Source: Candidatus Saccharimonadota bacterium (GTDB taxonomy: Bacteria > Patescibacteriota > Saccharimonadia > Saccharimonadales > Saccharimonadaceae). Taken from it: a stretch of 64,000 bases of DNA. Made by a program: the position numbers and the translations under genes. Each line of letters opens with the position of its first letter. Within the stretch, counting starts at the first letter, position 1. Positions 1 through 42,296 of this stretch are shown piece after piece. Location: the NCBI GenBank assembly GCA_017537745.1, contig JAFYKF010000007.1, forward strand, positions 1-64,000. Direction: 5' to 3'. Under the pieces are notes generated by a model. The model saw only the letters and a list, made by a program, of their open reading frames with translations. It made no database searches and had not been told where the DNA came from.

Positions 1-436
1 AGACCGCAGTATCATTTAGGTCTACGTCTATTTCAATATCACTTGTTGTAATAGTAAGTGTTTCTTCATTTCCTGAAATATCAGCTATTGCATCAACACT
101 CTTTGTCATTTTGTCTATATTAAGTACTCCAAGTACACCAAGAAGTACTACTACGGATAACGTAGTTAATTTAGCTACTAAGTGTTTATTAGTATGGGTA
201 GTAAAGCGATTTACTTTCTTGCGGCGAGAAATTGCAACAATGATACCAGCCATAATAGCAACAACAAGTACTATTATGCCAATGATTGGTAACACCATGC
301 TAGTATTAAAGTTAACTCCGTCCGTATGCGAGACGCTAAACATACCGGTGTCTGGCGTAATAGCACCCGGTACATCAGTATCTGGCACCACCGCAGAGCT
401 AGCGTCATTTACATTGATTAATAATTTCGATGACAT
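1..436 (-). CDS. MSSKL-family membrane/surface protein, 3' end cut by window edge
   Basis: The start codon is the CAT at 434-436 and the frame stays open to base 1, giving 145 codons. Residues 1-46 form a hydrophilic N-tail with PDTG at 28-31. A first TM segment (about 47-70) is followed by RRKK (71-74), then a second TM (about 87-105) and the start of an ectodomain with the TITTSDIEIDVDLND segment. It is very close to the protein at 40488-42296 and more distant from 23276-25258, so it is one of three paralogs. By the positive-inside rule the Arg/Lys loop is cytoplasmic, placing both the PDTG tail and the C-terminal domain outside. Its function is unknown. The leader contains AAAAGGCAAAAGAC before the ATG. 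Confidence 0.85.
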   Translation of the reverse strand, partial: MSSKLLINVNDASSAVVPDTDVPGAITPDTGMFSVSHTDGVNFNTSMVLPIIGIIVLVVAIMAGIIVAISRRKKVNRFTTHTNKHLVAKLTTLSVVVLLGVLGVLNIDKMTKSVDAIADISGNEETLTITTSDIEIDVDLNDTAV

Positions 437-17980: not shown

Positions 17981-19150
17981 TTAGCGCTTTTTTGTGAAAT
18001 TAACTTTCTTAGAAGTAGCTCTTTTCACCATCCAACCACAAATCAGTAGAGCAGTTGGAACCGCTACATAGATAGCGACGTTATTAATTTTACCAGCTTG
18101 ATCACCATCAGTAGTCATTATACCAGTATCAGGCACTGGAATTGGTGTAGCCTCCTTCCAAACTGCATAAAGCATTAATGATTGACCATCAATGTGAGTC
18201 GTCGTTGCGGCTTTTGTTTCAACGGCTTTTGTTTCAGTGGCTTTCCTTGTTTTTGGCCCCCGCACCACTTCACCACGGCCAGCGCCGCCGAAGGTCAGAA
18301 TATCACCAGGATTAAATGCTACAGTTGTAGTATCGTTAATTGTTGCCCAACCAAGAAAATCGTAACCATCCCTCGTTGGAACTTTTTCTGGAATTGTGAT
18401 GTTACACTCACCATAAGTAGTAGTATCCGAATGGCACGTTAACACTTCCGTACCACCAGTCTTATCATTTAAATTGAAAATTACACTATAAACCGGTGCC
18501 CAAATTGCATAAACCGTAGTTGATACAGAAATTGTATACTTTTCACCAGGATGCGTAACGGCTTCCGTAGAAGTACTCGCTTCGCCCCAACCTAAGAAGA
18601 AATATCCATCCCGTGTTGGCGTATCAGATTGGATCGTTACATTGCATAAATAATCCGATTCACTCAAATCTTCCTCAGCTACACCGTAAACTGCAGAAGC
18701 AGGTTGGCAGAACTGTGGTTTTATATCACCATATCCACCGTTTAAATCAAACGAAAGCTGATTGCTCCAAACTGCATAAAGATCGGTCTGATAAGAATGC
18801 GCCACAAGCGTATCACCAGGATAGTATTCTGGCTCTACAGCCTCACGCGTTGTAGCCCAACCCCAAAAGTCAAACCCCTCCCTAAGCATAATCGTATCCG
18901 AAACGACGAATTCACAAGATTTCTCTTCATTCGCACCTACTTCAGGAGTACAGAACTGCGGCTCTGGCACATTACTACCAAAATGGTTAGTACCATTGTT
19001 GGTGTGATAAATCAACATCCATGTATCCCACGCATTTGCGCCACTAGAATTAATAATCCCTATGCCAGTAATCAAAGCCACTGGCAAGAACAACGCCATG
19101 GCAAAAACCAGCCTAGCGATGTGCTTATTTTTAAATATTGACCTTAGCAT
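17981..19150 (-). CDS. PDTG-anchored surface protein with InlB-type B repeats
   Basis: About 389 aa from the Met at 19150 (AAAGG site upstream; the track could start at 19201 but that part is Lys-rich and lacks a ribosome site). A signal/TM segment is followed by three Listeria-Bacteroides repeat units, recognisable by GFDFWGWATTRE, GYFFLGWGEAST and GYDFLGWATIND, each closed by LYAVW or VYAIW. Each unit carries one Cys pair (for example QFCTPEVGANEEKSC), suggesting disulphides. The C-terminus has PVPDTG, a hydrophobic helix and a Lys/Arg tail (KKVNFTKKR), a sortase-type anchor with PDTG for LPxTG. The third repeat holds a low-complexity Thr/Lys insertion. Probable role is adhesion, perhaps to the host bacterium. 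Confidence 0.82.
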   Translation of the reverse strand: MLRSIFKNKHIARLVFAMALFLPVALITGIGIINSSGANAWDTWMLIYHTNNGTNHFGSNVPEPQFCTPEVGANEEKSCEFVVSDTIMLREGFDFWGWATTREAVEPEYYPGDTLVAHSYQTDLYAVWSNQLSFDLNGGYGDIKPQFCQPASAVYGVAEEDLSESDYLCNVTIQSDTPTRDGYFFLGWGEASTSTEAVTHPGEKYTISVSTTVYAIWAPVYSVIFNLNDKTGGTEVLTCHSDTTTYGECNITIPEKVPTRDGYDFLGWATINDTTTVAFNPGDILTFGGAGRGEVVRGPKTRKATETKAVETKAATTTHIDGQSLMLYAVWKEATPIPVPDTGIMTTDGDQAGKINNVAIYVAVPTALLICGWMVKRATSKKVNFTKKR

Positions 19151-19242
19151 TTTAGCCTTTCGTTTTTTTTGTTTAGTTTTTGTTTGAATAGAATCCAACA
19201 CCTACTATTATACATAAGCATTAATATAATGTCAACACTTTT

Positions 19243-23275: not shown

Positions 23276-25258
23276 CTAGCTCATGTAATATGTAGCATTC
23301 AAATCAACAGTCTGTCCCCTTAGAAATTCAAAATTACTCTCTAAATATTCTATTACATTCAATTCACCAGAAAAACTATCAAATTCATCATGAGATACCA
23401 CTCCCCAAGTATCCCAATCGTTATAATCGGCCGGATCATACACGCCATTTTTAGTAGAAAAATCATAAACCAAAACCGGAACTGAACCCTCACGTTCCTC
23501 ATTATAAATTGGATAGCCTCGCATATAATAACCATATGTTTCAACATAATTCACATCGGAACGATAAAGATTTATGCCAATAGTCGCACTATTGCCACCT
23601 ATATAAAATCTTCCGGATTCCAAAAGAAACATATCTTCATCCAAGTAATAATATTCAAAAGGACGACTCCAGTGATACCAAGTCCCCTTCCCGAGCATTA
23701 ATCTCCGATTGCCATCAGCATTAACACCGTACTTCACATCAACCACCAACCTATCGGCGCCAGGAGCAATAATGGAATCGTAAATTGAATCATTATCCAA
23801 ATCATATGTACTCACCTTATTACCATCATCATCAATATTGCTACTCTTTGCGATAAAACAGTTTTCGTAATCAATTGTACTGACATCAGATGGCTTTTTT
23901 ACATACACGGGCGTAATCTTTGCATAATAACCATAGCTAGCACCAGTATATCCATCACTGCCACCAGAAGTAGTAGATAAACCAATAACATTTGAATCAT
24001 AGTTAAAAACAATCGTTGTAGTTTCTCGATTTACATCCCAATTCTGATTACTACCAAATTCACCAAATAAATGAGTCCAATCACCCGAACCCTTATAGAT
24101 CTCAACTCTAGAAGTATAACGAAAACCGTAGGTCAACTCAACACGCAAATAATCTGCATCAACAAATTCAATATAATTAGGTTCATCATTAGAAGTCATC
24201 ATTAATTCTAGCATAGTACCATCATCGTCTATATTGTATGACTTCAATATTTGTGGCTCACCCAAATATTCAGTCGAACAACCATCATAATAATAAGCAA
24301 CTCTAGGTTTAAAATTATAAACAACCGTATTAGTTCTAGCACTCGAACCACCTCCAATATGATACCTCACCGTCACCACATCAGTATTGACATTTGCCAA
24401 CGCAACATAATTAATCGTAACACCACCGTAAGTGCCATAATCCAAATCCGGAGTAATGTAAGCCCCATAATAGAAAGTCGACTCGTCTCCAGCCGCCGTA
24501 GCTTCACTAGTAGCTTTAAGTGTTATAATTTCTTTTTCCGTAGTAGGCAACCCTCTAAACAAAACATCTTCTTCGGAATTTGGCTTAGAAATAGCCATGC
24601 CCCACGTATTATCAGTAAGAGCTTGCGAATAAGAAGTTTCCAACATAGAAATAGTACTCGTAGAAGATGTATCTGTTTCGTTTTTCAAATTAGTCGAAGC
24701 GCTATCTACATAAGCCATCAAGGTATAACCAGCAGTAGTGGCCGAATCAATCGACACCACACTCTCACCTACACCAAAAACTTTATCATCTTCTAGGTCC
24801 AGATTAATGGCGATGTCATTAGTAGTGATAGATAAAGCATTGACACTGTCATGGATACTTGCTTTAGTACTCGAGTCACCCCCAAAAAGCAAAGCGCTAA
24901 CCGACCCAGAATCGCTATTCAGATTCGCAATCGCGAAAAGACCGAGTAGTAACACAATTGAAAGAGAAGCCACTTTGGCCACCAAATGCCGTGAAGTATG
25001 TACCGAAAACTTATTAACTTTGCGCCGACGAATAGCAGCAGCAATAATAGTCACCACAATTATCACCGCAAGAACCGCAGTCCCCACAATCGGCAAAACC
25101 ATACTAACACCATTATCACTAATATTCTTAGTGTCAAGAATCGTATTACCACCAGTATCTGGAATCACAATTGGTTCAACATCCGTAGGCTCATCCGGTA
25201 CATCCGGAGTAACCGGAGCATTTGGATCATTAACGTTTACAGATAACTTTGATGACAT
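23276..25258 (-). CDS. MSSKL-family surface protein with two CUB-like repeats
   Basis: 660 aa. N-tail with PDTG at 33-36, TM1 about 52-76, RRRK 77-80, TM2 about 94-112, then a large ectodomain. Residues about 150-300 share with the paralog at 40488 the pattern DSATTAGYTLMAYVDS and NTWGMAISKP. Further on two repeats start with NIDDDG, contain LRVELTYGF or LVVDVKYGV and a KGxxxW motif, reminiscent of CUB-like adhesive domains. The C-terminus ends in NATYYMS without an anchor. The gene begins 14 bases after the PDTG adhesin gene and is probably co-transcribed with it. Confidence 0.8.
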   Translation of the reverse strand: MSSKLSVNVNDPNAPVTPDVPDEPTDVEPIVIPDTGGNTILDTKNISDNGVSMVLPIVGTAVLAVIIVVTIIAAAIRRRKVNKFSVHTSRHLVAKVASLSIVLLLGLFAIANLNSDSGSVSALLFGGDSSTKASIHDSVNALSITTNDIAINLDLEDDKVFGVGESVVSIDSATTAGYTLMAYVDSASTNLKNETDTSSTSTISMLETSYSQALTDNTWGMAISKPNSEEDVLFRGLPTTEKEIITLKATSEATAAGDESTFYYGAYITPDLDYGTYGGVTINYVALANVNTDVVTVRYHIGGGSSARTNTVVYNFKPRVAYYYDGCSTEYLGEPQILKSYNIDDDGTMLELMMTSNDEPNYIEFVDADYLRVELTYGFRYTSRVEIYKGSGDWTHLFGEFGSNQNWDVNRETTTIVFNYDSNVIGLSTTSGGSDGYTGASYGYYAKITPVYVKKPSDVSTIDYENCFIAKSSNIDDDGNKVSTYDLDNDSIYDSIIAPGADRLVVDVKYGVNADGNRRLMLGKGTWYHWSRPFEYYYLDEDMFLLESGRFYIGGNSATIGINLYRSDVNYVETYGYYMRGYPIYNEEREGSVPVLVYDFSTKNGVYDPADYNDWDTWGVVSHDEFDSFSGELNVIEYLESNFEFLRGQTVDLNATYYMS

Positions 25259-25272
25259 ATTATATCTCCACT

Positions 25273-27117
25273 TTAATCAAACATTTTACGTCTTATTATT
25301 CTATATGCAAAATGTGTAAGAATCGCACCACCAATTATCCCACATCCAACCAACACGATACCAAGCACATTTTTAACAAAATCCTCGCCAGTATTAGAGA
25401 AGGCACCAGTATCCGGCACTAAGATATCCTCATCTTCCTCGTCAACACCTTCCTTAATTTGCATCAACACAATCACGCCTTCTTCATCATTTGCATTAAT
25501 TGCGAAATCTTCAGAATAGACCAATCCGTCTTCCTCGTCATAGCCCTCACTTTGTTTTCTACTATATCCTTCCGGGGGTGTAACCTGGGCGAATCTGTAG
25601 ACCCCAACACCTAGATTTGAAAACAGAACTACACCCTCATCATCAACAGTCCTAATTAACTCACCACCATCGCTTGCTTTGTAATCAGTATATTCACCAT
25701 CCTGTCCTTTCAATTGCAATTTATAAGTCCCACCAGCCACCACTTCGCCTGAATCAGCATCAGCCTGCATCAGCAGAGCAGAAAAGCTACCTACTTCAAT
25801 CGATGATGAAATACCAACCAACGTAGCACTACCATTCATAGTAGTTGGCACACCATCATATGTATAAATAGCATCGGAGGAAAGAATGCGTTCTTCCAGA
25901 GCTAATGGGTACGTTGCGCTAATGAAAATATTAAAAGTCGCCACCGCTTCATGAGCCACGGAGTTACGTCCAAAACTCGCTGTTAATCTATTTGCCAAAG
26001 CAGAACTCTGCTCTTCAGGATAATAACCATTACTGATTATTTTATCAACAGCCGAATTAATATAATTCTCATCAATATCCCTCCATAAAGGACCGTCCGC
26101 CCCAATTTCTCCAAAATAAACAACCACCGAGAATAATCCATCACTAGATTTATAAACGCCATACTGCAACGGTGCTCCAGCTACTCTCGCTTTAAAACTA
26201 CTATATGTTTCCCCATCTCGTTGAGTCACTTCCGTAAAAAAGGATTCAACATTAAAAGTGTATCCAAACGAAGCACCACCACTTCCGTTTTCCAAGGTCA
26301 ACGGAGCAGGCAAGAGTGCCTGTATCCTTCCAATCGAAACATTGGTTGCCTCTTCATAGCTATCCTCAAAAAGACCATCGACAATATCTCCAGAAGCACC
26401 ATTGGAACTTAGTAAAGAATTACTCAGAGATGTTCCAATTCTATAAGCCCAAGATACATAATTGTTTGAAAAAGCACCACTCTGCCACCGAGCATCTATC
26501 AATCGATGAAGATTTTGGCCACTAATCTTAAAATAAAAAGTCTTATCCCCAATCGTCATCTGGCCAACCCTAGCATAGCCAATCTGCCATGATCTTATAC
26601 TTCCGTCCAAAAAGGCAAGTTCAAACGGTTGCATCACACTCATACCAACTGCATTTTCATTGAATATACCAACAATGTTGCCGCCCTCAACTCTCCACTG
26701 CCCAATATTAACATTGCCATTAGATAGATCAACGTAGCCAGTGCTACTTGGAAAAGAAAGGTCTGAGGCGTTCCCCGTAATGTGTGTTTGAACTTGCACA
26801 GTAAAATGGTCGCCATTTTGCAAAGTCTCACCAGTCGGCAATTGCATCGAAAGCGTCAAAACAGCAGCGTTCACAGTCGCAGCATCAACTGTATAATCCT
26901 CTGGATTCGAAGATGCCGACGCACCAGTTTGAATGTCTACTTCAGTACCATCCGGAAGAGTTAAGACCAAATTATCTACATTAATATAATTACTAATGTC
27001 CCTTCCTTCATCAGCAAAAGCATTGCCCATACTAAGGCAACTAATCGCAAGAGCTATTACCGGAACAAAAAGCATAGCGACGCGCTTCAACATTCCAAAA
27101 CTTTTTTTATTTTTCAT
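25273..27117 (-). CDS. PDTG-anchored adhesin with SpaA/CnaB domain
   Basis: 614 aa. A signal peptide ends near residue 35 (SMGNAFADEG). The region about 45-400 has an Ig-like adhesin character (LQNGDHFTVQVQTHITG). Residues about 460-520 form a SpaA/CnaB-type domain (GGTYKLQLKGQDGEYTDYKA ending YRFAQVTPPEGYS). The C-terminus has ILVPDTGAFSNTG, a hydrophobic helix and RRK, a sortase-like anchor. It has a strong promoter and heads a two-gene unit with the MSSKL protein at 23276. Likely role is adhesion to a host cell; the ligand is unknown. Confidence 0.83.
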   Translation of the reverse strand: MKNKKSFGMLKRVAMLFVPVIALAISCLSMGNAFADEGRDISNYINVDNLVLTLPDGTEVDIQTGASASSNPEDYTVDAATVNAAVLTLSMQLPTGETLQNGDHFTVQVQTHITGNASDLSFPSSTGYVDLSNGNVNIGQWRVEGGNIVGIFNENAVGMSVMQPFELAFLDGSIRSWQIGYARVGQMTIGDKTFYFKISGQNLHRLIDARWQSGAFSNNYVSWAYRIGTSLSNSLLSSNGASGDIVDGLFEDSYEEATNVSIGRIQALLPAPLTLENGSGGASFGYTFNVESFFTEVTQRDGETYSSFKARVAGAPLQYGVYKSSDGLFSVVVYFGEIGADGPLWRDIDENYINSAVDKIISNGYYPEEQSSALANRLTASFGRNSVAHEAVATFNIFISATYPLALEERILSSDAIYTYDGVPTTMNGSATLVGISSSIEVGSFSALLMQADADSGEVVAGGTYKLQLKGQDGEYTDYKASDGGELIRTVDDEGVVLFSNLGVGVYRFAQVTPPEGYSRKQSEGYDEEDGLVYSEDFAINANDEEGVIVLMQIKEGVDEEDEDILVPDTGAFSNTGEDFVKNVLGIVLVGCGIIGGAILTHFAYRIIRRKMFD

Positions 27118-38625: not shown

Positions 38626-39369
38626 TCACTTATTATATATTTTGTCGTATAATCTCTGCCAATCAGAGAGATGTAAGTCCGCCGGCCGCGCATCAATATT
38701 AATATTTAGCTTTATAAAAACATCTTTAAGCTCATCTCTTGGCAAAATCATCGCGAGGTTTTTGGTTAACTTCTTCCGTGGCTGAGCAAAACCTTTCTTA
38801 ATCAAATCAAACACTTTGTCTTCCACCACTGGTTCGTGCGGCATCAAGACAATCACTTGCGAATCAACTTCAGGCGGAGGCGTAAACTCGTCTTTTAGGA
38901 CTACTGGCCCCAGCATAATATCAGCTCGATTCTTCACCGTCAACGATAACACAGATTCTCTTTCGCTTGCAATCCGCTCCGCCACTTCTTTTTGCATCAA
39001 CAGCACAATCCTAGCCGGCACATTCTCAGCCGAAACAAGCTTCTCTACAATCGGGCTAGTTATATAATATGGTATATTTCCACATACCACATATTCTTGC
39101 GGCATGTTGGATAAATCATATTGCAAAATATCCTCATTTACCACCTCCAGATTCTTCCCTGGAAACGACGCTGGCAATTTCGTCGCCAGATTCTTATCAT
39201 ATTCAACCGCCACTACCTTCTTAAATCTTTTTAACAATGAAGAAGTCAAGGTCCCAAGTCCCGGGCCAATCTCAAGACATACCTCACCTTCACCCGCCAA
39301 ATCCGCAATCTCCTCTAAAATCGCCCGGTTTTTCAGCCAATGCTGGCCAAGTGCCTTGTTAGTTGCCAT
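38626..39369 (-). CDS. rsmA: 16S rRNA (A1518/A1519) dimethyltransferase RsmA
   Basis: 247 aa from the Met at 39369 (MATNKALGQHWLKNRAILEE). It has the SAM-binding CLEIGPGLGTLTSSL, the catalytic NIPYYITS and the C-terminal KKGFAQPRKKLTKNL region. It dimethylates two adenines of the 3' helix of 16S rRNA. The start overlaps the end of the G5/3D gene by 11 bases, so the two are translated from one mRNA. Confidence 0.95.
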   Translation of the reverse strand: MATNKALGQHWLKNRAILEEIADLAGEGEVCLEIGPGLGTLTSSLLKRFKKVVAVEYDKNLATKLPASFPGKNLEVVNEDILQYDLSNMPQEYVVCGNIPYYITSPIVEKLVSAENVPARIVLLMQKEVAERIASERESVLSLTVKNRADIMLGPVVLKDEFTPPPEVDSQVIVLMPHEPVVEDKVFDLIKKGFAQPRKKLTKNLAMILPRDELKDVFIKLNINIDARPADLHLSDWQRLYDKIYNK

Positions 39370-40441
39370 TACGATTGGTCCAATCCGTTGCCAGGTCAAA
39401 CTGTTCAGGGTTATTTTGTGTAAAAGTCCCTGTGTCATAAACCCGACCCAAACCCAAAGAAGTTTCTACCACCGAACACCTCGGATAACGAGTCAAATCC
39501 GCCGCCACCAGCACATAGCCCTCAGCATCCACTTTTACGCCATCTTCACGCACCGTATAGTACGCTTCCACTCCGCACTCACGCGCCGCAATCGACATCA
39601 CGCCTTTCATCGGCAAATCGTAATAAGTTTCTTTTCTTTCAATTATTACTCCGTTCACATTGACAGTATATATATTCACCCCGCGCGATGCCGTAAGCGG
39701 TGTTCTCTCAATTTCACTCGCGCCCACCGCCACAATTCTCGCCACCGGCTCACGCTTTACTACATCAGACTTAAGCTCTCGCTTTACCTCGACATTATTC
39801 TCATAAAACACTTCATAAGTTAATTCCCTCACACCAGTCTCACCAAGCTGTTGCACCGCACGCTGTCCTGGCTCCAAGTTATAATCTTTTACCGTCTCCT
39901 CTGCAAACGGTATTTCCTCTTCTTCTGTTACCGTACGTCCACCATTACGGGTAATTTCATAGATAGTTGCCACTCCGGTCTCCAAAAAACTTTGTACTGG
40001 CGCCATCCCAATTTCATCTCCATCATAAACCGTTATGCCGGCTTCACGCGCCACAGCCCGCAAATCATAACTTGCCGTCATGATATATTTGCTAGTCACC
40101 CCATCTCTTATCACCACCGGTCGCGCACGATAAATGTTAATAAAGAAATTATCCGCATTAATTTCGGTATCTACACCCGGATCAACAATGTCACTTTCAT
40201 TAATGATTATACCGGCTCTTTTTATAGCTTCACCCACCGTTGGCGCATCAGTTCTCACGGTCAATTTATTGCCTTCATCATAAAAACTCACAAAGTATTC
40301 GGTCGAATCAGCATAAATACCATCCTCATTATTCGCAAAAGTGTCAAAATTATTGCGATTTGCACCAAAACCTAGCACGAACGCTAAGATGAACACGGTC
40401 GCAACCATTAGAGCCTTATCCGTAAATCGAGGAAGTCTCAT
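39359..40441 (-). CDS. Secreted cell-wall protein with DUF348, G5 and 3D domains (RpfB/YabE-like)
   Basis: 360 aa from the Met at 40441. An N-terminal TM/signal helix (about 10-26) is followed by two DUF348-type ubiquitin-like modules (DEGNKLTVRTDAPTVGEAIK; VTSKYIMTASYDLRAVAREA), a G5 domain ending ERTPLTASRGVNIYTV, and a 3D domain whose three Asp are in VAADLTRYP, RVYDTGTF and FDLATDW. YabE/RpfB relatives are wall-remodelling enzymes (lytic transglycosylase type). TATAAT (40448-40453) ends six bases before the ATG, so the message is probably leaderless. Confidence 0.88.
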   Translation of the reverse strand: MRLPRFTDKALMVATVFILAFVLGFGANRNNFDTFANNEDGIYADSTEYFVSFYDEGNKLTVRTDAPTVGEAIKRAGIIINESDIVDPGVDTEINADNFFINIYRARPVVIRDGVTSKYIMTASYDLRAVAREAGITVYDGDEIGMAPVQSFLETGVATIYEITRNGGRTVTEEEEIPFAEETVKDYNLEPGQRAVQQLGETGVRELTYEVFYENNVEVKRELKSDVVKREPVARIVAVGASEIERTPLTASRGVNIYTVNVNGVIIERKETYYDLPMKGVMSIAARECGVEAYYTVREDGVKVDAEGYVLVAADLTRYPRCSVVETSLGLGRVYDTGTFTQNNPEQFDLATDWTNRNGN

Positions 40442-40487
40442 AGCACAATTATAACACAACTATTATATTAATACAAAGTAAGCAAAA

Positions 40488-42296
40488 CTACACACTAAGT
40501 TCGGGATCCGACCAAGAGGAAACAACCGGACGAGCGACGCAACGGACTGAGAGGCCGTAATCGCGATAGTCTCCGTACGATGGATCGGCGTAGCCACCCG
40601 TATCGAAGCCCGCGTAGCCAGCGCGCACCTCATTGTAGGCAATAGAAGACCAGAAACCGCCACCACTCCCAACGTCACCTAAGCCACCATACCAGTTGCC
40701 ACTAACGGCGAAGAATAGTGGTTTTTCCCATAAGGCATGACGCCCGTCGTACCAATAATAAGAATCGCCCTCAAAATAATACATATACCACAAGGAGTAG
40801 AATGAATCGTCGCCATTGCCTGCTCGTGGAAGTGTCCAGCCAGCTGGACAGATAGATTGTTCTATTAAGCTACCGTCGTAATAATTAGAACTGTCGTTCA
40901 TAGCTACAGCCGCCGTCCAATTATAATAATTACCTAGATGGTACTGTGGAATACCAGTAGATGATACATAGGTCGAAGTAGGATTAAGCGACTCATTGCA
41001 ATTATATGGCATATCGTTAGAGTCCCAACTACAAGTTTGCCAATAAGAAGCCCATTCGTCAAAATTCCCTTCTCTACCATTCCAATATATATCACCTGGG
41101 TCAAAGGATTCTGGAGTAATATATGAGCTTCTCCGAGTAGTAATGCCAGTAGTATAAGTAGATAGGCTTGGCGTCCAAGAGGCGGATTCATACTGCCCAG
41201 TACGCGGATTATAACCTAGGTCTGTATCTTCATTAGTATAGGTAGTGTTGGAATCTAAGTCTAAGTCTAAGTTCTGAGTCATCCAGACGCCATATTTCCA
41301 ACCATCTACACTACCAACAGAGCGTTGTCCAAATTTTGCGATGGTATAAGACTTCTCATCACGCTTATCAATAAGCGTATATTGTGTTTCAGGCGTCATA
41401 GAATCTACGATTTGGTCACGGTTAGGACCAGCGAAGTCTTGTAAACATTTAGCTTCTTGTATGGTAGTAGCATTTGGATTACATGGATCAACATAATTAG
41501 CAATTGCAATATATGTAATAGTAGTACCAGAATAAGTACCATAGTCTAAGTCCGGAGTAATATAAGTACCATAGTAGAAAGTAGATTTGTCGTTAGCAGT
41601 GGTAGCTTCTTCTGTAGTTTTAAGTGTCATTGCGGTATCTTGTGTAGTAGGAAGACCAGTAAAGACTGTTGAGGTTTGGTCTGTTGGTTTCGTAGTTGCT
41701 ATACCCCAGGTATTGTCTGTTAGGGCTGTTGGTTCATTGGAGCTTAACATGGAAATAGTACTTTTAGAAGATTTATTGGTTTCATTTGTTAAGTCTGTAG
41801 TAGTACTATCTACATAGGCCATGAGTGTATATCCTGCAGTAGTTGCAGAATCTACTGTAACTACACTTTCTCCAGTAGCAAATACTGCAGTGTCGTTTAA
41901 GTCTACGTCTATTTTAATATCACTAGCAGTAATAGTAAGTATATCTTCTTCTGAATTATCTGCCGCATTAACCATACTAGTTAATTTATCTGCATTTAAT
42001 ACACCTAATGTACCTAGTAATACTACTACGGATAATGTAGTTAATTTAGCTACTAAATGTTTATTAGTATGCGTAGTAAAACGATTTACTTTCTTGCGGC
42101 GAGAAACCGCTACAACCGTTCCTGCGACAATAACAATTATTAAAACAGCAATACCAATAATTGGTAGTACCATACTAGTATTAAAGCTCACTCCGTCCGC
42201 ATGAGAGACACTAAACATACCAGTATCTGGTGCACTAGTGTCTGGTACTACAGTTGGCGTAGCATCGTTTACATTAATTAAGAGTTTTGATGACAT
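40488..42296 (-). CDS. MSSKL-family surface protein with FISUMP domain
   Basis: 602 aa. N-tail with PDTG at 23-26, TM1 about 42-65, RRKK 66-69, TM2 about 83-101, then the family module (DSATTAGYTLMAYVDS). From about residue 330 a FISUMP-type (Fibrobacter succinogenes major paralogous) domain is recognisable: KYGVWMTQNLDLDLD, SICPAGWTLPRAGNGDD, GGFWSSIAYN and YGLSVRCVARP. FISUMP domains are extracellular and probably adhesive. The leader has AAAAAGGTAAAAGACAT and a strong promoter. It is the closest relative of the truncated gene at 1-436. Confidence 0.85.
   Translation of the reverse strand: MSSKLLINVNDATPTVVPDTSAPDTGMFSVSHADGVSFNTSMVLPIIGIAVLIIVIVAGTVVAVSRRKKVNRFTTHTNKHLVAKLTTLSVVVLLGTLGVLNADKLTSMVNAADNSEEDILTITASDIKIDVDLNDTAVFATGESVVTVDSATTAGYTLMAYVDSTTTDLTNETNKSSKSTISMLSSNEPTALTDNTWGIATTKPTDQTSTVFTGLPTTQDTAMTLKTTEEATTANDKSTFYYGTYITPDLDYGTYSGTTITYIAIANYVDPCNPNATTIQEAKCLQDFAGPNRDQIVDSMTPETQYTLIDKRDEKSYTIAKFGQRSVGSVDGWKYGVWMTQNLDLDLDSNTTYTNEDTDLGYNPRTGQYESASWTPSLSTYTTGITTRRSSYITPESFDPGDIYWNGREGNFDEWASYWQTCSWDSNDMPYNCNESLNPTSTYVSSTGIPQYHLGNYYNWTAAVAMNDSSNYYDGSLIEQSICPAGWTLPRAGNGDDSFYSLWYMYYFEGDSYYWYDGRHALWEKPLFFAVSGNWYGGLGDVGSGGGFWSSIAYNEVRAGYAGFDTGGYADPSYGDYRDYGLSVRCVARPVVSSWSDPELSV

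Follow-up and report, generated by a model that had tools for sequence, protein, structure and literature searches.

A large surface-protein family of gut Saccharibacteria carries a putative sortase-type sorting signal, P-x-T-G followed by a transmembrane segment and basic residues, at the N-terminus. The mechanism that we favour for it, with a confidence somewhat above even, is a split domain, in which sortase would anchor the detached first strand of the ectodomain and this strand would hold the remainder of the ectodomain non-covalently. The proposed precursor order is a beta strand, a flexible linker, P-x-T-G, a first transmembrane segment (TM1), a basic loop, a cleavable signal peptide and the remaining ectodomain, so that the sorting signal would in effect interrupt the domain after its first strand. 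The short acidic tail would be pushed outward while TM1 inserts N-out, as its charge suggests; the second hydrophobic segment (TM2) would export the ectodomain and signal peptidase I would cut after A-x-A, as the site suggests; the N-terminal strand is predicted by AlphaFold to dock into the ectodomain beta sheet, where it would remain without a covalent link; and sortase would cut between T and G of PxTG and attach the tail to the wall or to some other amine, as motif and enzymes suggest. The outcome would be an ectodomain held on the wall through its own first strand. Order, conservation, charge, sites and enzymes are taken from sequence and the docking from structure prediction, and we infer the processing steps and the wall target.

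The window, the whole stretch of 64,000 nucleotides that was analysed, belongs to an 838 kb genome of Candidatus Saccharibacteria in 11 contigs, which was covered by searches and by the reading of stretches. As the original prediction had it, three proteins, all encoded by minus-strand open reading frames (ORFs), have in common the order PDTG, TM1, RRKK or RRRK, second hydrophobic segment and ectodomain, an arrangement referred to below as the N-module, and two further proteins carry PDTG, a transmembrane segment and basic residues in the ordinary position at the C-terminus. The features are as follows.

40488-42296, minus strand: main N-module surface protein, 602 aa (ORF)
42264-42293, minus strand: N-terminal beta strand of the main protein, aa 2-11, SSKLLINVND (AlphaFold; strand pattern of representative tails)
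42219-42230, minus strand: PDTG of the main protein, aa 23-26, proposed sortase site (motif)
42093-42170, minus strand: TM1 of the main protein, aa 43-68 (hydropathy; AlphaFold helix)
42090-42101, minus strand: RRKK of the main protein, aa 66-69, start of the basic, putatively cytoplasmic loop (charge statistics)
41982-42062, minus strand: TM2 of the main protein, aa 79-105, signal-peptide-like (AlphaFold; signal peptidase site pattern)
41964-41972, minus strand: VNA of the main protein, aa 109-111, proposed signal peptidase I site (site pattern; paralogue alignment)
41496-41939, minus strand: ectodomain 1 of the main protein, all-beta, query of the tail-blind search (domain model, AlphaFold)
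40491-41378, minus strand: C-terminal FISUMP domain (TIGR02145) of the main protein, first matched residue to the end (45.5 bits, cut-off 41.65)
23276-25258, minus strand: second N-module protein, 660 aa (ORF)
25151-25162, minus strand: PDTG of the second N-module protein, aa 33-36 (motif)
24392-24835, minus strand: ectodomain 1 of the second N-module protein (domain-1 model)
2-436, minus strand: third N-module protein, cut by the contig start (open ORF)
344-355, minus strand: PDTG of the third N-module protein, aa 28-31 (motif)
25273-27117, minus strand: ordinary C-terminally anchored protein with a weak SpaA match (PDTG-TM-basic at the C-terminus)
17981-19201, minus strand: ordinary C-terminally anchored protein with List_Bact_rpt (PDTG-TM-basic at the C-terminus)

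The third ORF is incomplete because the contig starts there, and the second N-module protein has no TIGR02145 match. Pfam and NCBIfam returned no informative match to the N-module or to domain 1. With regard to gene order, the gene at 25273-27117 shares its strand with the second N-module gene and ends 14 bp before it, the two possibly forming one operon, and a gene for a G5 plus DUF348 protein (39359-40459) adjoins the main gene.

Beyond the three window copies, a genome search found more than 20 N-module paralogues in the window genome, a copy number that is approximate because several contig ends of the assembly fall within N-module genes (window 2-436; L012, L015, L016, L021-L023 and L026), as is expected where near-identical paralogues break assembly. 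Signals of the N-terminal kind were thereby found in more than 20 proteins of this genome, versus about 10 of the C-terminal kind. A second genome, G139, has 24 matches to domain 1, and the relatives found are metagenome-assembled genomes (MAGs) of Candidatus Saccharibacteria, including some from the gut of goat, yak and sheep. In a search of 343 genomes of the class, strong full-length N-module matches were confined to this genus; many of the weaker matches outside it, which were partly read, contain internal stop codons and resemble ordinary C-terminal signals. Median identity between paralogues is 0.48 for the N-module, 0.64 for domain 1 and 0.35 for the remainder, and one may speculate that, with the front constant and the end variable, the end could be swapped without loss of the anchor. 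One paralogue (L012, near 28677 of its contig) shows a frame shift between its NVNDATP and PDTG parts, which may stem from phase variation, from decay or, a contig end being close, from misassembly.

In order to avoid circularity, conservation of the motif was assessed with a query consisting of the first ectodomain alone, a model of 148 positions without the tail, against 118 congeneric genomes; the N-termini of a sampled part of the domain-1 matches were then read, in a pool that also included loci from the window-genome paralogue searches. P-x-[TS]-G with variable x precedes TM1 in 73 of 74 two-TM precursors, versus 0 of 30 one-TM relatives with a plain signal peptide (Fisher p = 2.6e-25, only indicative because the sequences are related); the lone exception, L024, has PDAG. 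Within 35 representative tails less than 60% identical to one another, PxTG or PxSG is present in 34, far above the 2.7 expected from shuffling each tail. In a 22-row alignment of diverse modules, whose rows were found tail-blind, the motif's P and G are the same in every row and its T in nearly every one.

The surroundings of the motif likewise match those of an ordinary sortase signal. Residue x may be D, N, G, E, S, Y or K, variable as in LPxTG, and the usual residue before P is V, A or T in N-modules and in the genus's C-terminal anchors alike. A hydrophobic residue at +2 and S or T at +3 are each found in 27/35 N-terminal and 11/15 C-terminal signals. The N-terminal PxTG, too, is followed by a hydrophobic segment and then basic residues, at a spacing to the TM of roughly 10-20 residues that is similar for both kinds. 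A profile comparison of N-module with C-terminal anchor gave 97% probability over 22 columns around the motif, and a profile built from C-terminal anchors only retrieves the N-modules of the window genome. Position sets the two apart: in representative tails the motif lies within the first 60 residues, with hundreds of residues downstream, and not at the C-terminus, and the proteins have no signal peptide ahead of the tail and TM1, the signal-peptide-like segment coming after TM1. Motif, flanks and sortases thus support the original view of the N-terminal PxTG as a sortase-type sorting signal. Several trivial readings were considered and rejected. A DTG active site of an aspartic protease fits poorly with a 25-residue tail whose x and flanks vary as in LPxTG; an internal start leaving a plain signal peptide is disfavoured because the valine encoded by the candidate GTG start is not conserved in the alignment; and a sequencing error or frameshift fusing two genes is at odds with a frame that is open in many genomes.

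The enzymes needed are encoded. The window genome has two sortases with catalytic His, Cys and Arg intact, which resemble class C/E and class F at scores below the class cut-offs, and a sortase is present in 118/118 congeneric genomes; signal peptidase I and YidC are encoded in the genome, and SecA in the window. The long sortase of the genome (L001) is extended at its N-terminus by about 150 residues ahead of the membrane segment, as are those related long sortases that were read (L110, L112 and L113). As regards topology, the median net charge is -4 for the tail and +7 for the loop, and 34/35 proteins have more K+R in the loop; an acidic tail and a basic loop place the tail probably outside, in line with what had been proposed from the window. 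In one relative, L128, the N-terminal strand and PDTG are separated by a CBM_X2-like domain, scoring 25.2 bits against a Pfam cut-off of 28.9 and thus below it, and its presence there suggests that this tail is exported. None of the three outcomes that would have told against the original view, namely loss of the motif among homologues, a genome devoid of sortase and a tail on the inner side, emerged.

TM2 resembles a cleavable signal peptide. An A-x-A-like signal peptidase site follows it in 74/74 two-TM precursors (a permissive pattern, counted without a shuffled control), and A111 is invariant in 18 aligned paralogues, so that TM2 is probably cut and the ectodomain probably leaves the membrane. 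This speaks against the original suggestion that the C-terminal domain stays there. Since 59/59 complete N-module proteins have no hydrophobic segment after domain 1, the N-module would be the only evident anchor if TM2 is cut; on the other hand, it would then no longer be covalently joined to the ectodomain.

The predicted structure of the tail offers a way in which the two could stay together. In the AlphaFold model of aa 1-269 of the main protein, a strand spans residues 2-11 (residues 1-10 average pLDDT 94), the linker at 25-40 is below 50 and domain 1 is about 95; for a yak MAG query that is 36-37% identical, a strand is predicted at 2-10 with pLDDT 93. The two alignments are shallow (20 and 9 rows) with sequences in common, and the predictions were read as secondary structure and pLDDT. 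A lone strand rarely reaches such high pLDDT, and the N-terminal strand is therefore presumably packed on the ectodomain. All 35 representative tails show the strand pattern, a count biased because start codons were selected using that pattern. A strand pattern lies after the signal peptide and ahead of the domain in 18/29 one-TM relatives versus 1/35 two-TM proteins (p = 1.4e-7), some one-TM relatives being without it. These counts fit a relocation of the first strand ahead of the sorting signal in two-TM proteins, the likeness of the tail strand to the one-TM strand being one of hydrophobic pattern between remote relatives (22-50 bits). Foldseek returned no match to the model at E<=0.001; the best pilin match had E 0.066, and the donor-strand pilins PapG, FimH and EcpA matched non-significantly at E 0.07-0.3.

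Other readings of these data have to be weighed. The tail was originally taken for a mere peptide of 25-35 residues, which sortase would cut at PxTG and attach or release as the actual product, TM2 remaining uncut and the ectodomain standing on a membrane hairpin. The motif, the topology and the intact sortases would suit this too, and the hydrophobic core of TM2 could serve as an anchor; we nevertheless regard it as unlikely, given the signal peptidase-like site in every two-TM precursor, the strand at pLDDT 93-94, which gives the peptide a structural role, and the difficulty of explaining why an unrelated peptide should be kept in the same gene. A membrane hairpin is also implied if the strand docks but sortase takes no part, PxTG having some other role or being left over as a relic when a C-terminal anchor became fused to a following signal peptide. 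Chains with just such a fusion-like order, signal peptide, ectodomain, PNTG, TM, signal peptide and ectodomain, exist in L132, L209 and L210. A relic would decay, however, and here PxTG and its flanks are conserved whereas the linker is not, which leaves this reading a rather small chance. With regard to these chains, L132 and L209 each comprise what look like two exported units, namely a signal peptide, an ectodomain and PNTG-TM-basic residues, and then a second signal peptide and a large second ectodomain, which in L132 contains an HEFGH motif.

Docking could also take place in a neighbouring molecule. Wall-anchored strands would then be shared sockets with which the more than 20 paralogues pair in trans, forming an exchangeable, mixed coat or a donor-strand polymer that sortase fixes to the wall. 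The strand and domain that these paralogues have in common, the long flexible linkers and the weak pilin matches are compatible with such pairing, but docking is already satisfied in the single-chain prediction and nothing points to filaments, so that we consider it improbable, with a probability near the bottom of our range. The split domain with docking in its own ectodomain remains the reading that we favour.

It was originally supposed that an N-terminal sorting signal had not been described. This does not hold, because an N-terminal LPXTG that sortase A recognises is common to all M26 IgA1 metalloproteases (PMC9637739), and an N-terminal LPxTG signal is reported for these and for Zmp-type proteins (PMC9637739, PMC2705793); the pneumococcal N-terminal LPNTG is attributed to Bender and Weiser 2006, as cited in PMC9637739. 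The mature enzyme starts downstream of the motif, by 56 residues in one account (PMC9637739), and mature residues are given as 154-1963 in another (PMC7695701). The M26/Zmp proteins of streptococci and Gemella are like the window family in having an LPxTG-type motif near the N-terminus; they differ, as far as published descriptions rather than sequences are compared, in being proteases of very large size that contain G5 and M26 regions, neither of which has a Pfam match in the window N-module proteins. In the latter, by contrast, the motif is not preceded by a signal peptide, a docking strand is predicted, and the C-terminal domain is FISUMP or a different one. Peptidase_M26_N had no match in the genome at E<=10, and control genomes were likewise without one. 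What is new here is hence the proposed split-domain mechanism, the N-terminal sorting signal itself being already known; a search of the open literature found no paper on N-terminal sorting in Saccharibacteria.

Two further systems invite comparison. Ordinary C-terminal sortase anchors share with the window family PxTG, the hydrophobic segment, the basic residues, the local motif and intact sortases, whereas the signal of the window family is N-terminal, lacks a preceding signal peptide and has a signal-peptide-like segment and then the ectodomain downstream of it. Chaperone-usher donor-strand pilins are alike in a short strand of alternating hydrophobic residues, which in the window family is predicted to complete a beta domain lacking it; in contrast, a single precursor supplies both strand and domain in the window family, the bacterium is a monoderm, nothing in the arrangement calls for a chaperone or usher, and the fold matches are not significant.

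The streptococcal N-terminal LPxTG proteases pose a puzzle, in that their signal lies upstream of the mature protein and yet anchors it, and the window family suggests a testable answer in the form of a split domain with its first strand as the anchor. If the mechanism is true, a short strand together with a sorting peptide would make a useful display tag. Cultivated Saccharibacteria live on other bacteria, and their surface chemistry is poorly known; the mechanism, if true, would be a new route of display on a monoderm surface, in Saccharibacteria.
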